Origin: an uncultured Pseudomonadales bacterium
GTDB lineage: Bacteria; Pseudomonadota; Gammaproteobacteria; Pseudomonadales; Azotimanducaceae
DNA: 64,000 bases
Assembly: GCA_937775265.1 (NCBI GenBank)
Contig: CALKBV010000002.1
Coordinates: forward strand, 244,538-308,537
Reading direction: 5' to 3'
Of the stretch, positions 21,406-27,383 are shown piece by piece (positions within the stretch are counted from its first letter, which is position 1; the number at the start of each line of letters is the position of its first letter). Under the pieces are notes generated by a model, which worked only from the letters and a program-made list of their open reading frames with translations, did no database searches and was not told the DNA's origin. The translations under genes and the position numbers were made by a program.

Positions 21406-21551
21406 AACCCTATCCAGAGGACATCAAGAAACGGATATTACCCTAAAAAAACAAGGGTCAGGGTCGCCGGAAATAGGCTTGGCGAATGGATTTCTATCTG
21501 GTAAGGTTCGCCGCTCGTTTTAGAACCCACATTGTTGAAACGGACAGATCA

Positions 21552-22637
21552 ATGGCAGCGAAGCGCAAAGCAACCGCAAAGGCGAAACCAAAAAACAAGG
21601 CAAAGGCAAAGGCCCAGACAAAAACCAAGTCTAAGGCCAAGAATGCACCTGCTAAGAAAGTACCTGCAAAAAAGAAAGTCAGCATGAAATCTAAAGTCAA
21701 GCCAACAGCAAAAGCCAAACCGAAGGCAAAGGCAAAGGCCAAACCAAAGGCAAAAGCCAAACCAAAGGCAAAAGCCAAACCGAAAGCCAAAGCGAAGCCA
21801 AAAGCCAGAAGGCAAAAGCCAAGCCGAAGGCAAAAGCCAAGCCACAGACAAAAGCCAAACCGAAGGCAAAAGCCAAGCCACAGGCAAAAGCCAAACCGAA
21901 GGCAAAACCGACAGCCAAGAGCGCGGCAAAACCCAAGGCACGGTGGCAAGGTCAAGACAAAAGTTACAACCAAGGCTAAGGCAGTAACGAAAAAGGCAGC
22001 GGTAAAGAAATCGCCAGCCAAGACGAAGCCAAAAACCACCAAAAAAACTTCAACCAGCATTAAAAAGGTCACGAAGAAGTTGAGGTCGACAACAAAAACA
22101 GCAGGGAAACCCGCCGCGAAGGCGAAGGTTGCAATCAAGAAAGCTGCAGCCCCAAGAAAAGCAGTAGAAGTAAAGCAGAAAGCACCACGGCCACCACCTA
22201 GCGCAGCAAGGCCAAGGACCGTTCCTAATGAACCTACCGTTACTCCTTATAAAACAAGAATCAATGAGGAGTATATGAACGCAGAGCAGAAAGCTCATTT
22301 CAGCGATATCCTACTGGACTGGAAATTCCAGCTGATGGAAGAAGTGGACAGAACTGTAAGCCATATGAAAGATGAGGCAGCTAACCATCCTGACCCAGCC
22401 GACAGAGCAAGCCAGGAAGAAGAGTTCAGCCTCGAACTGAAAACCCGCGACCGCGAACGAAAACTGATTCGAAAAATCGACAAAACTCTCGAGTTGATCG
22501 ATCAGGATGATTACGGTTACTGCGAGTCCTGTGGTATTGAGATCGGTGTGCAAAGGCTGGAAGCGCGCCCAACCGCAACCCAGTGCATTGACTGTAAAAC
22601 GCTTGATGAAATCAAGGAGCGTCAAATCCACGGGTAA
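21552..22637 (+). CDS. dksA: DksA with a very long basic N-terminal extension
   Basis: RNA polymerase-binding regulator DksA. The last 130 residues match E. coli Dks[20 protein letters not shown], the coiled-coil tip [12 protein letters not shown] (D-x2-D-x-A kept), and a zinc finger CESC...CIDC. Ahead lies about 230 residues of Lys/Ala/Pro repeats, H1- or AlgP-like, which may bind DNA or RNA; E. coli DksA has only 151 residues in all. Inside the tail, about 21807-21945, the repeats switch from K-A-K-P to R-R-Q-K-P-S/H and back, showing two compensating frameshifts. The start MAAKRKA is chosen; a TTG/ATG 66 bases further upstream is less likely. Confidence 0.9.
21711..21945. repeat. Low-complexity tandem repeats within dksA
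   Basis: Imperfect tandem copies of 12- and 24-base units built from AAAGCCAAACCGAAGGC, encoding Lys-Ala-Lys-Pro in one frame and Arg-Gln-Lys-Pro in the next. The opposite strand is also open across the repeats, a side effect of composition. Such tracts are prone to slippage. Confidence 0.85.
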
Positions 22638-22677: not shown

Positions 22678-23535
22678 ATGGATTACGTCGGTCGATTCGC
22701 CCCCTCTCCGACCGGCCCGTTACACTATGGATCGTTCGTTGCTGCCATGGCAAGTTTTCTTGATGCCCGACACGCAGGCGGAAAATGGCTACTCCGGATT
22801 GAGGACCTTGACCCACCCCGAGAATCCATAGACGCGCCTCGGGAAATCATCAGACAGCTACTCGCACTTGGCCTGCACTGGGACCTTGAGGTCCTCTACC
22901 AGAGCAGCAGACTGAAATCCTACGACGCCGCCCTTGAATCCATTCAAGCATTTACCTTTCCATGCACGTGTTCCCGAAAAGCGGTTCCTGACATTTATCA
23001 AGGCATCTGCCGCCGCAGGAAGCATCTCGTGCCCGGTGGACCATATGCAGTTCGACTCCAGGTGCCCAGGCACAGCGTATCAATCAATGATCGTTGCCTT
23101 GGTTTAAAGACCTGGGATCTGGAAAAGGAAGTTGGCGACTTCATCATCAAGCGCAAAGATGGACTTCACGCATATCAGCTCGCCGTTGTCGTTGACGACA
23201 TCCACTATTCCGTCAACCATATTGTCCGCGGGAATGACCTCCTTGATTCGACACCACGCCAACTAGCGCTTTACGAACAGTTAGAGGTTTCACCACCCGA
23301 GTATCTGCATATCCCGGTATTGGTGGACGAGTCGGGAAACAAACTCAGTAAACAAGCTCATGCAAAACCAGTGGATACCAGTGATGCTTTAACCACTATC
23401 CGTAGCGCGCTATCAGACCTGGGCCAGAATACACACAAGTACTCCTTAAGCATCGAAGAACTGCTGGAGAAGGCGGCCTCCTCCTGGAATCCAGCTACTA
23501 TTCCAAATGTTCATGGCATCTACCGCAGAAATTAG
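22678..23535 (+). CDS. gluQ: Glutamyl-Q tRNA(Asp) synthetase
   Basis: GluQ-RS (285 aa), a truncated glutamyl-tRNA synthetase paralogue that attaches glutamate to queuosine in tRNA-Asp. It has the HIGH-like GRFAPSPTGPLHYGS, a zinc site with CTCSR and GICRRR, RIEDLDPPRE, and the KMSKS-like KLSKQ. It lacks the anticodon-binding domain, as expected. It follows dksA by 40 bases, the standard pairing. Confidence 0.95.
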   Translation: MDYVGRFAPSPTGPLHYGSFVAAMASFLDARHAGGKWLLRIEDLDPPRESIDAPREIIRQLLALGLHWDLEVLYQSSRLKSYDAALESIQAFTFPCTCSRKAVPDIYQGICRRRKHLVPGGPYAVRLQVPRHSVSINDRCLGLKTWDLEKEVGDFIIKRKDGLHAYQLAVVVDDIHYSVNHIVRGNDLLDSTPRQLALYEQLEVSPPEYLHIPVLVDESGNKLSKQAHAKPVDTSDALTTIRSALSDLGQNTHKYSLSIEELLEKAASSWNPATIPNVHGIYRRN

Positions 23536-23662
23536 GCATCTTCCGCACGGCCCTCTGACAGAGGCGACAAAAGCTCGGCATTCCCCGTAAGAAGAGCCGT
23601 TTACGTTAGTGTTACCTTTTTACCCATCAACGCGGCATTGAGTAACAATCTACCTGGCAATA

Positions 23663-23999
23663 TGGGAGTAAAATTTTGTATGTTATTGATTTTTATGGAG
23701 TTGTTTATTTTCCCGCAATTCTGGGATAGTGGTAACTGTCAGTCAACATAGAACAAACAGGAAGATTCTGGCAGTGACCTTCACTTTCGGGTGGCAGGTT
23801 GAAAAATAATAGCAAACATAATACGAAGAATGTCCTGGCTCGCTAAATGGGAAAAATTCGCTTTTACCATTTTCTTTTTCCACCTCCGCAAAAACGTTAC
23901 CGTAAGAATCAGTTCGCTCTGTTAAACTATCGCCGATTCTAAATACGTCACCCCTTTAAACTTGTTTTTTACGACTCGTATTTTCAACTTTACTCCCAC
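23663..23999. mobile_element. Possible MITE-like element: inverted termini and 5-bp direct repeat
   Basis: The 522-base gap between gluQ and pcnB has no convincing gene. Inside it TGGGAGTAAA (23663-23672) and its exact complement TTTACTCCCA (23989-23998) face each other, with 12 of 13 bases matching when extended inward. The direct repeat CAATA flanks them at 23658-23662 and 24000-24004 (the right end carries one extra C). An inverted-repeat element with a target duplication is the natural reading. It encodes no transposase and is A/T-rich. Further copies elsewhere in the genome would be needed to confirm it. Confidence 0.4.
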
Positions 24000-24057
24000 C
24001 AATACGCTGGGACTTCCAGGCCAACTCTTGTCAAATGACTGATTTACAGCATCAAAG

Positions 24058-25332
24058 ATGAATTATTTAAGTTCTATTGAAGAAAGTGCCATCAGCATCA
24101 ATGCCAGCAAGGTAATCAGTCGCCTGCAGGACCATGGCTTCCAGGCATACCTCGTCGGCGGCTGTATTCGTGATCTGTTGCTACGCAAAACCCCAAAAGA
24201 TTTTGACATCGCAACAGATGCTCACCCGGAAGAAGTCCGTGAGTTGTTTCGCAACTCTCGCATCATTGGGAAACGATTTCGGATTGTTCATGTCCGATTT
24301 GGACGCGAAATAATAGAAGTTACCACCTTTCGCGGGCCTCACGCGGATGAGTACGATGAGAATCACTCTGATTCCGGTATGACCCTGAACGACAATGTCT
24401 ACGGCACCTTCGAAGAGGATGTGTTCCGGCGGGACTTCACGATGAATGCCATCTATTACGAGCCCCAGGGAAAGGAAATCATCGATCTCGCAGACGGTAC
24501 TGCCGATATTGAAAGCCAGATTATCAGGACAATCGGTGACCCAGCAGGAAGACTAAGGGAAGACCCGGTCAGGATGCTTCGTGCCATCAGGTTTCAGGCG
24601 AAACTGGAATTTGGTTTGGAGTCGGATCTCCAGAGCTCAATAAGATCGCTGGGCTACCTTATACAGGATGTTCCCCCGGCCAGGTTATTCGAGGAAGTAC
24701 TAAAGCTTTTCCTGTCTGGTTATGGCACTGCTGCCTTCGATGCCATGCTGGAGAATGATATCTATGGGTGGTTGTTCCCGGATTCCAAGCGGTCGATGGA
24801 GAACAATGCGACTGAAGAACTCGTACGGCTGGCACTAACCAGCACGGACCAAAGAATCGCGAAAAAAATGCCCGTCACACCAGCTTTTATATATGCAGCA
24901 ATACTCTGGCATCCATTTGTTGACGAAAAACAACGGCTAGAACAAGAGGGTGAGATCAAATACGCAGCTGCACATGAAGCGGCTAACAATGTGATATCGA
25001 AACAGCAGCTTTTCACCTCTATTCCGAAACGCTTCTCCGGTCCGATGAGAGAGATCTGGTTCCTTCAGTCGCGGCTACCTTCCCGGTTTGGCCAGAAACC
25101 AGACAGAACGATGGAGCATAAGCGCTTCAGGGCTGCTTATGATTTTCTTCTACTGCGAGAACAGGCTGGCGAGAAAACAGAACAACTCGGGGAGTGGTGG
25201 ACGGAATACCAGGAAGCCACCGAAGAACGAAAGCTTGCCATGAAACAATCGACCAGCAACGGTCGCCAGCGTAAACGTAAGCGAAAACCTCGCCCGAAAG
25301 CCAGTCCCAGCGATCAAACGTCCTTGAACTAA
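24058..25332 (+). CDS. pcnB: Poly(A) polymerase I
   Basis: PAP I (424 aa), which adds 3' A-tails that mark RNAs for decay. The nucleotidyltransferase core has AYLVGGCIRDLLL, the metal pair KDFDIATDA, and FRRDFTMNAIYY; the neck GRLREDPVRMLRAIRF follows. The C terminus is strongly basic (RQRKRKRKPRPK), as in E. coli. The ATG at 24058 fits the family length without a leader. In pseudomonads cbrAB precede it and folK-panBCD-pgi follow; none are here. Confidence 0.95.
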   Translation: MNYLSSIEESAISINASKVISRLQDHGFQAYLVGGCIRDLLLRKTPKDFDIATDAHPEEVRELFRNSRIIGKRFRIVHVRFGREIIEVTTFRGPHADEYDENHSDSGMTLNDNVYGTFEEDVFRRDFTMNAIYYEPQGKEIIDLADGTADIESQIIRTIGDPAGRLREDPVRMLRAIRFQAKLEFGLESDLQSSIRSLGYLIQDVPPARLFEEVLKLFLSGYGTAAFDAMLENDIYGWLFPDSKRSMENNATEELVRLALTSTDQRIAKKMPVTPAFIYAAILWHPFVDEKQRLEQEGEIKYAAAHEAANNVISKQQLFTSIPKRFSGPMREIWFLQSRLPSRFGQKPDRTMEHKRFRAAYDFLLLREQAGEKTEQLGEWWTEYQEATEERKLAMKQSTSNGRQRKRKRKPRPKASPSDQTSLN

Positions 25333-25440
25333 CCCCGGGATCCAGAATACCGGTTGCAACTCCTGTCTGATCCTAGTTTTAAGCCGAGCCACATTGTGGC
25401 ACCCTGTCTATCCCATCACATCTGGTTTGAAGGAGCCGTA

Positions 25441-27383
25441 ATGGCCGAACAAAAAGTTTATCCGGTCCCCAAAGAATTCGAGAACCACACACATATACGC
25501 AACGATCAATACCTTGCGATGTATGACGCCTCGATTAATCGATCGGATGAGTTCTGGTCCCAGAAAGCAGATGAATTCATCACCTGGTTTAAACCCTGGG
25601 ACAAGCTGACCGAGTCTGACTTTGATCAAGGCGAGGCAAAATGGTTCTTAGGTGCAGAGCTAAACGCAAGCTACAACTGCATCGATCGACATCTTGAGCT
25701 GAAGGCTGACCACACCGCCATCATCTGGGAAGGCGATAATCCCGATGATGACCTACGTATCACTTATCGTGAACTTCACGATCACGTCTGTCGACTTTCC
25801 AACGTACTGCTGGACCGCGGAGTCAACAAGGGCGACCGAGTCTGCATCTATATGCCAATGATCCCGGAAGCCGCCTACGCGATGTTGGCCTGCGCACGGA
25901 TAGGCGCAGTACACTCGGTTGTGTTTGGCGGTTTTTCTCCGCATGCGTTGAAGGACCGAATCCTGGATTCAGATTGCAGGACGGTGATCACGGCTGATGA
26001 AGGAGTACGCGGCGGCAGACCGGTCCCCCTTAAAGAAAACACCGACAAAGCTCTCGAAGACTGTCCCGATGTTTCTACTGTACTGGTCGTTAAACGAACA
26101 GGTGGGAAAATCGACTGGTTCGACGATCGTGATGTCTGGTATGAGGAGGCAACCAGCCAGGTCTCACCGGAGTGCGAAGCCATCCCCATGGGAAGCGAAG
26201 ACCCTTTGTTCATTCTGTATACTTCCGGCTCAACGGGAAAACCAAAAGGTGTCCTTCACACTACCGGCGGATACCTGTTACAGGCCGCAATGACCCATAA
26301 GTATGTGTTTGATTATCACGAAGGTGATGTCTACTGGTGCACTGCCGACGTGGGCTGGGTGACAGGACATTCCTACATTGTCTACGGCCCCCTCGCCAAC
26401 GGCGCGATCACCTTGATGTTCGAAGGTATTCCCACCTACCCTGATTCTTCGAGGTGCTGGCAGGTCGTCGACAAGCACAAGGTCAATATTTTCTACACCG
26501 CTCCGACTGCCCTGCGTGCACTCATGAGCCAGGGAGACGACTTCGTAAAATCAACCTCCCGCGAGAGTCTTCGATTATTAGGCAGTGTTGGTGAGCCCAT
26601 CAATCCGGAAGCATGGGAATGGTATTACCATGTAGTGGGTGACGCGCGATGCCCGATCGTAGATACATGGTGGCAAACTGAAACTGGCGGCATCATGATC
26701 ACCCCCCTGCCCGGAGCAACAGATTTAAAACCAGGCTCAGCTACCACACCTTTTTTTGGCGTCAAACCCGTCCTGCTGGATGAAAATGGCAAAGAGCTAG
26801 AAGGTGCTGCGTCAGGTAACCTGGCGATTAGCGGTTCATGGCCTGGCCAAATCAGGACAGTTTTTGGAGATCACCAGAGGTGTATAGACACCTACTACTC
26901 GACCTATCCAGGTTATTATTTCACCGGTGATGGCGCCCGGCGAGACGAAGATGGTTATTTCTGGATCACTGGCAGGGTTGACGATGTGTTGAATATTTCC
27001 GGGCATCGCCTGGGTACCGCAGAGATCGAAAGCGCACTGGTCGAACACAGCCTTGTTGCTGAAGCCGCAGTTGTCGGTTATCCCCACGACATTAAGGGCC
27101 AGGGTATCTACGCCTTCGTCACCTTGATGCGGGGGACCGCAGGGCACCGACGAACTTCTTGCGTGAGCTTAACAGCCTCGTCCGATCAGAGATCGGCGCC
27201 ATCGCAAAACCCGATATCCTGCAGTGGGCCCCTGGCTTACCGAAGACCCGGTCCGGCAAGATCATGCGCCGTATTCTCCGGAAGATCGCCGAGAACGAAC
27301 TGGACAACCTGGGAGATACCAGCACGCTGGCCGACCCTTCAGTAGTCGATGACCTGATCAGGAACAGCCCAGTGACCTCATAA
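25441..27383 (+). CDS. acsA: Acetyl-CoA synthetase, with two apparent 1-nt insertions near the 3' end
   Basis: AMP-forming acetate--CoA ligase (about 647 aa after repair). The P-loop is [23 protein letters not shown] and the hinge [15 protein letters not shown] are present. The frame is intact to VTLMR (27132). One extra G in the run 27131-27135 restores GPQGTDELL, and one extra G at 27161 restores [18 protein letters not shown] and then [15 protein letters not shown], the C-terminal domain with the acetylatable lysine. As written, the first frame ends early at 27345 with unrelated residues. The start MAEQKVY has GGAG upstream. Sequencing errors or true decay. Confidence 0.9.

Follow-up and report, generated by a model that had tools for sequence, protein, structure and literature searches.

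The CbrAB-CrcZ module and its closest described relatives

In Pseudomonas, the small RNA CrcZ is made via CbrB, RpoN and IHF, and its A-rich motifs bind the distal face of Hfq, freeing target mRNAs from Hfq/Crc, as outlined in PMC8395346. The same paper describes CrcY and CrcX of Pseudomonas as homologues of CrcZ whose A-rich motifs bind Hfq; they are additional copies, whereas the locus reported here occupies the place of crcZ. Three A-rich motifs acting on Hfq are also described for sRNA99 of A. baumannii, an RNA of another organism, which its authors liken to CrcZ (PMC12802169). Upstream of crcZ, PMC6296734 places three CbrB subsites and a GG-N10-GC promoter. CbrAB is called exclusive to Pseudomonadaceae in statements of two papers (PMC8871633, PMC6296734), and none of the papers listed in a search of the open-access literature reports either CrcZ or CbrAB beyond Pseudomonas and Azotobacter, or a CrcZ without CbrAB.

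The window analyzed here is the whole stretch of 64,000 nucleotides from an uncultured bacterium of the Azotimanducaceae, whose genome is designated G000. All features described below lie on its plus strand unless otherwise stated. The genes gluQ (22678-23535) and pcnB (24058-25332) are separated by a gap of 522 bases, which is very probably the leftover of a CbrAB-CrcZ carbon-control module with a decaying RNA gene. In common with CrcZ of Pseudomonas and Azotobacter (RF01675), this RNA gene is located between cbrB sequence and pcnB on the same strand, preceded by GTTACC/GTAAC sites and an IHF-like site; relatives of the window also share the A-rich AANAANAA motifs and a terminator hairpin with a T-run, and 16 of the 18 cbrB-bearing relatives outside the genus share the sigma-54 promoter. 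Unlike CrcZ, the RNA in the window has a length of about 140 bases by its inferred ends, compared with 396 for the Rfam match in Stutzerimonas, has no Rfam match, and has decayed A-rich motifs and a decayed terminator; its genus has neither the sigma-54 promoter nor cbrA, and its own genome has no cbrB and no Crc match. The synteny series, the cbrB remnant, the homology of the RNA to those of relatives, the absence of a sigma-54 promoter and the hairpin damage are seen in the sequence, and they are best explained by a course of events in which the order of steps, the descent shared with Pseudomonas CrcZ, the Hfq decoy function and its loss here would be the interpreted parts.

Synteny of the locus in the family

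Comparison of 18 loci revealed the order gluQ-cbrA-cbrB-pcnB in G049, G053, G056, G040 and the yardstick Stutzerimonas, in which Rfam CrcZ is found between cbrB and pcnB (302.7 bits). In genera of the family other than that of the window, dksA precedes this series (dksA-gluQ-cbrA-cbrB-pcnB), and G024 has cbrA-cbrB-pcnB on a contig that stops beyond cbrA. Because the gene order is the same and the place is that of the Rfam CrcZ in Stutzerimonas, the family carries the pseudomonad CbrAB-CrcZ locus. In the genus of the window, the order is gluQ-cbrB-pcnB in six genomes (G001, G002, G009, G010, G013 and G016), and the locus of G014 is cut by a contig end. A contig end also cuts the locus of G011. 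In G005, G012 and G030, gluQ is present and cbrB is absent at the locus. In G007 (L067), gluQ, cbrAB and the RNA are all absent between dksA and pcnB.

The CbrB proteins of the six relatives are intact, with 431-455 residues as counted from the first start codon and 49-54% identity to CbrB of Stutzerimonas. Other CbrB-like genes in the own genome reach 40-44% identity and at most 277 bits, compared with 57-68% and 520-646 bits for orthologues. In a tree from which the partial G014 row was left out, CbrB is set apart by a branch with 71/96 support that occurs in 72% of bootstrap trees; because the paralogue branches in this tree are long, the orthology of CbrB rests on synteny and on the identity gap. 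A search for cbrA at E<=1e-60 gave no match in any of the 17 genomes of the genus, which are incomplete assemblies, and since the own assembly is 77% complete, finding neither cbrA nor crc in it does not prove their loss.

The full gluQ-cbrA-cbrB-crcZ-pcnB order in another family, together with the natural series in which the module is dismantled stepwise, is what gives this locus its interest beyond the window.

A remnant of cbrB fused to the end of gluQ

The last approximately 28 codons of cbrB and its stop codon are retained at 23524-23609 with an internal stop, as identified by a protein match, DNA alignment and comparison of the junction. Residues 408-438 of CbrB from G001 match this remnant with 71% identity and one TGA inside, and the DNA can be aligned with that of G001, G010 and G014. 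G001 is the closest relative that has cbrB, with a PcnB 96% identical and 150 of 176 four-fold sites identical. Comparison of the G001 and G005 ends located the gluQ/cbrB junction and revealed that the last approximately four codons and the stop of the gluQ open reading frame (23524-23535) derive from cbrB, whose bases are read here in a different frame. G005 has an upstream junction identical to that of the window, so a single deletion is probably common to both genomes; in G005, a further 42 bases are missing between two GGCAT words. The suggestion of the initial annotation that the gap marks the scar of cbrAB loss is thus borne out by the cbrB tail fused to the gluQ end, and relatives carry cbrB or cbrAB exactly there.

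A CrcZ-type RNA gene before pcnB

When the gap DNA was compared with 97 genomes, the own genome included, 15 were matched, over the full length in the closest genomes and otherwise mostly on 23802-23878. This conserved core stands before pcnB wherever the loci are readable. A covariance model of the 3' part (R1), aligned from 15 relatives with the window and G005 left out, scored 71.6 bits (E 2.5e-9) on 23794-23878 of the window, which is its only match in the own genome, and 61.9 bits in G005. In the terminator stem of R1, 3 of 13 pairs are changed on both sides, and 98.4% of cells are paired, compared with 43-72% when the alignment is slid. The decayed gene for the CrcZ-type small RNA is placed at 23737-23879, the ends being approximate, between the cbrB remnant and pcnB, at a place where cbrB stands intact in relatives; pcnB is its downstream neighbor in the compared loci. 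Among 150 family genomes searched with stricter filters, at which weak matches are lost, R1 matched 39, with one match each except in G147. The second match in G147 (C288:13291-13364, E 6.7e-7) is perhaps a CrcY-like second copy or belongs to a contaminating contig.

The connection to Pseudomonas CrcZ is made through the relatives. Rfam CrcZ, whose threshold is 95 bits, also matches this position in three further families of the order (L046, 110.8 bits; L043, 66.9 bits; L039, 36 bits); the threshold is reached by Stutzerimonas (L055) and L046 and not by the window. In this family, CrcZ matches below the threshold occur at the same place in L032 (E 0.026) and L023 (E 0.055), and because two unrelated Rfam families reach E 0.39 and 0.79 in the same run, these weak matches lean on their position. 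R1 in turn matches L046 at E 0.0018 and Stutzerimonas CrcZ at only E 0.21-0.28. In the gap itself, CrcZ gave no match at E up to 10, and Rfam at gathering thresholds listed ten tRNA/tmRNA matches in the window, none of them in the gap. Through this chain of synteny and graded Rfam and R1 scores, we infer that the RNA in the window shares descent with Pseudomonas CrcZ. For annotation, it follows that the short CrcZ-type RNAs of this family score under the Rfam threshold.

Control region of the RNA gene

A TGTTACC...GTAACA pair at 23610-23647, identified by alignment and by its Stutzerimonas counterpart, represents the putative old CbrB-type upstream sites of crcZ. The stretch 23609-23645 is identical to that of G014 at 35 of 37 positions, although only 82 of 157 four-fold sites of pcnB are, and the upstream sites are identical to those of G001 at 36 of 37. 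The two sites are 31-32 bases apart in nine of ten genus loci and missing in G012, which is without cbrB; a similar pair stands behind cbrB in Stutzerimonas, and the pair in the window would be a binding place of CbrB. Between these sites and the promoter, an IHF-like site was read from the sequence at 23679-23691, with 12 of 13 positions agreeing with the IHF consensus; crcZ of Pseudomonas has its site in the corresponding position.

At 23701-23730, where other family members have the sigma-54 GG-N10-GC element, the window has two promoter-like boxes, TTGTTT-18-GATAGT, the second of them preceded by TG. The words TTGTTTATTT and GGATAGT are invariant in all five aligned genomes, and GATAGT is found in eight of ten genus loci. 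A generic sigma-70 scan did not list the TTGTTT/GATAGT pair, the hexamers being poor. No GG-N10-GC match was found in the window, and none of the ten genus loci exceeds 6 of 10 positions. Outside the genus, with Stutzerimonas included, the cbrB-bearing loci with this promoter match at 8-9 of 10 positions, and the two that failed the strict pattern are G109 and G154. A search for RpoN was positive in 17 of 18 genomes, in 15 of them above the cut-off. Downstream of the RNA, a block containing TGTTAAACT at 23889-23929 is largely invariant in five genomes, with similar words in other loci, and is the probable promoter of pcnB.

Probable decay of the RNA in this genome and in G005

The hairpin and T-run at 23845-23879 are damaged in the window, two stem pairs having been lost via changes at 23856 and 23866. 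The predicted fold has -5.5 kcal/mol (z -0.94), compared with -10.5 to -17.2 kcal/mol in five intact relatives. Across 32 loci, G005 (-5.1 kcal/mol) joins the window, and the other 30 range from -10.5 to -19.5 kcal/mol. The A-rich AANAANAA motif is found once in the window, not at all in G005, 2-7 times in the other 30 loci, and 3-7 times in the eight genus rows besides these two; 37 of 200 shuffles reached the number in the window and 200 of 200 that in G005. Since the terminator lesions of the two genomes differ and both have few motifs, the two lines seem to have lost RNA features separately after the shared deletion. Over the A-rich and hairpin part (80 columns), private differences number 7 in G000, 8 in G005 and 3 in G001. 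This is the direction expected if the RNA evolves faster in G000 and G005, with counts too small to make decay statistically decisive. The upstream sites and promoter boxes are still intact in the window, which could mean continued use.

Other readings of the gap

The gap had been read in the initial annotation as a possible MITE-like element whose insertion duplicated a 5-bp target. The 10-bp perfect inverted repeat behind this reading, extendable to 12 of 13 positions, is present, its arms being TGGGAGTAAA (23663-23672) and the complementary TTTACTCCCA (23989-23998; span 23663-23998, without strand). CAATA is likewise present at both ends (23658-23662 and 24000-24004), with the left copy abutting its arm and the right copy one base off, so the supposed target duplication is not flush. 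The repeat is at chance level: with CAATA set apart, at least one perfect 10-bp inverted repeat occurred in 289 of 2000 sequences made by dinucleotide shuffling of the gap and in 12 of 122 tiles of the window, and a 12-of-13 repeat occurred in 6 of 60 shuffles. In an alignment of the window with G005, G001, G014 and G010, both arms and both CAATA copies are kept in G005, which speaks for an element; against it, the left arm of G001 differs at one position and its left CAATA reads CGATA, and both arms are altered in G014 and G010, although the gap aligns throughout. A search for further copies gave one match in the own genome (assembly 77% complete), and none of the four aligned relatives has an empty site with one CAATA, the gap being filled and syntenic in each. 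The gap thus resembles MITEs in being non-coding and in having a short inverted repeat and differs from them in having neither a second copy nor an empty site nor conserved ends; the cbrB tail, the RNA gene and the pcnB leader account for the features inside. With a repeat at chance level, ends altered in three of four relatives and a single copy, the transposon reading falls, and an insertion of this kind is extremely improbable. An equally improbable reading is that the conserved core encodes a small protein: a 31-codon ATG frame (23830-23925) does cover the most conserved stretch, but in relatives it is broken up over more than one frame or matched only in part, its ATG occurs in 2 of 15 alignment rows, and the stem changes preserve pairing. 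The earlier statement that the gap holds no protein gene is upheld as far as this frame was tested; on the opposite strand, 23743-23883 is a 46-codon ORF, identified as an open reading frame only.

That the conserved stretch is merely the 5' leader and promoter of pcnB is hardly more credible. The stretch ends beside pcnB, and 23889-23929 is probably the pcnB promoter; however, the R1 match lies upstream of this block and ends in relatives in a terminator hairpin, which would halt transcription before pcnB, and Stutzerimonas has Rfam CrcZ at that place. A more serious competitor, still unlikely, is a functional RNA in the window, that is, a rewired short CrcZ-type Hfq decoy with a sigma-70-like promoter, whose transcript would end at the weakened hairpin or run into pcnB. 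The retained promoter boxes and the near identity of the upstream sites to those of G001 agree with it, as do the presence of Hfq in all 16 genomes searched and the intact RNAs of relatives without cbrB. Against it stand the terminator damage by different mutations in both genomes that share the deletion and motif counts of one and zero, which do not exceed those of shuffles.

The leftover of a CbrAB-CrcZ module remains the preferred reading, and the following course of events may be proposed. In an ancestor, the sensor kinase CbrA and the sigma-54 activator CbrB would have turned on crcZ, located between cbrB and pcnB, and the A-rich motifs of its RNA would have titrated Hfq off target mRNAs. 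In the genus of the window, cbrA would have disappeared, and the sigma-54 promoter of crcZ would have been replaced by sigma-70-like boxes. In the common ancestor of the own genome and G005, a deletion would have taken the last gluQ codons and nearly all of cbrB, after which the RNA gene would have been decaying in both, with A-rich motifs lost and terminators broken by different mutations. On the best reading, the RNA serves, or once served, as an Hfq decoy in relatives, and in the own genome the switch is gone and the RNA is being lost.

CbrB without CbrA, and the status of Hfq and Crc

The seven CbrB sequences of the genus, among which G014 is without the receiver and G001 has unread bases in it, were compared at the phosphorylated aspartate and at the GAFTGA loop, which contacts sigma-54. 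CbrB of G001, G010 and G002 has deletions after the phosphorylated aspartate, and asparagine replaces the receiver aspartate in CbrB of G009 (L064 1568-2923), a genome without cbrA. Six of the seven sequences have GAFSGA in place of GAFTGA, and in CbrB of G002 (L066 5852-7147), also without cbrA, this loop has been lost. The DNA-binding part at the C terminus is well preserved. These changes fit a regulator leaving sigma-54 control.

As mentioned above, Hfq is general among the genomes searched. A Crc search with the Stutzerimonas query (E<=1e-10) gave no match in 16 of 17 genus genomes, which are incomplete assemblies. The only match, in G009, is 35% identical and carries GDYN and SDH nuclease-type words; because L127 of another family, a 46% Crc match, also has SDH, and the pattern is silent for L094, L125, L126 and L130, this word test does not decide whether the G009 match is Crc. 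In 20 other family genomes, the best matches in 18 are 24-37% identical or absent. Among the orphan genomes covered by the search, G000, G005 and G012 gave no match and G030 a match of 26%.

Orphan RNAs in other relatives

The 39 R1-positive genomes yielded 30 loci, 20 with cbrB upstream, 8 with gluQ and without cbrB, and 2 undecidable. The eight orphans are the window, G012, G030, G098, G134, G150, G172 and G192, and G005 brings the orphan genomes to nine. In these nine, no CbrB orthologue was found elsewhere, the best matches having 38-50% identity and at most 289 bits, and no cbrA was found. In the seven other orphan loci, no convincing remnant of the cbrB tail was detected: G012, G030, G134 and G192 gave no match, and the matches in G098, G150 and G172 are weak (E 0.002-0.09). 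Counted by genus labels, cbrB would have been lost at least four times (G000/G005, G012, genus g15 and genus g23), and at least three lineages besides G000/G005 would have lost cbrB with the RNA intact. Outside G000/G005, the hairpins of the orphan RNAs fold at -14.3 to -19.5 kcal/mol, and their A-rich motifs number 2-6.

In g15, PcnB four-fold identity between G172 and G098 is 0.49, compared with 0.84 for the RNA stretch and 0.89 for its core, and pairs with G150 have 0.24-0.25 at PcnB four-fold sites versus 0.76-0.77 in the RNA core; the RNA identities are somewhat raised by the A-rich make-up, and the G030 rows were not used. An RNA identity so far above that of PcnB four-fold sites speaks for selection on the g15 RNA after cbrB loss. 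Before the RNA, the five g15 orphans have TTGCAG-17-TANNNT in common, as read from the sequences, and G162, a cbrAB-bearing relative of these orphans, has TGGCACGAACCCTGC there instead. Four loci speak against a clean promoter switch: an 8-of-10 GG-N10-GC match persists there in G172, 7-of-10 matches are seen in G150 and G192, and G181 combines cbrB and a 9-of-10 sigma-54 promoter with no cbrA.

It may thus be that CrcZ-type RNAs persist once CbrAB is gone, probably in the role of Hfq decoys. Extended to the whole family of mostly uncultured bacteria, the RNA would not be tied to CbrAB but would repeatedly outlive kinase and activator, exchange sigma-54 for sigma-70-like promoters and serve as an Hfq decoy independent of CbrAB and apparently of Crc; CbrB would pass through a kinase-less stage with an eroded receiver and, in one genome, a missing loop for contact with sigma-54, and the window, with its dying RNA, would be the last stage. 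This wider scheme is tentative, and we are slightly more doubtful than persuaded of it. If the orphan RNAs work, they would provide a direct test of the use of Hfq titration without CbrA nutrient sensing.

Neighboring genes

Downstream of pcnB, acs (25384-27380) looks frameshifted, residues 2-588 of Acs from G001 being matched in one frame and residues 593-666 in another from about 27159; a real lesion and an assembly error are both possible. Upstream of gluQ, dksA (21486-22637) is a 383-codon ORF with a long, repetitive lysine-/alanine-rich N-terminal extension. Counted from the first start codon, the dksA ORFs have 283-394 codons in ten relatives and 187-188 in G009 and G002.
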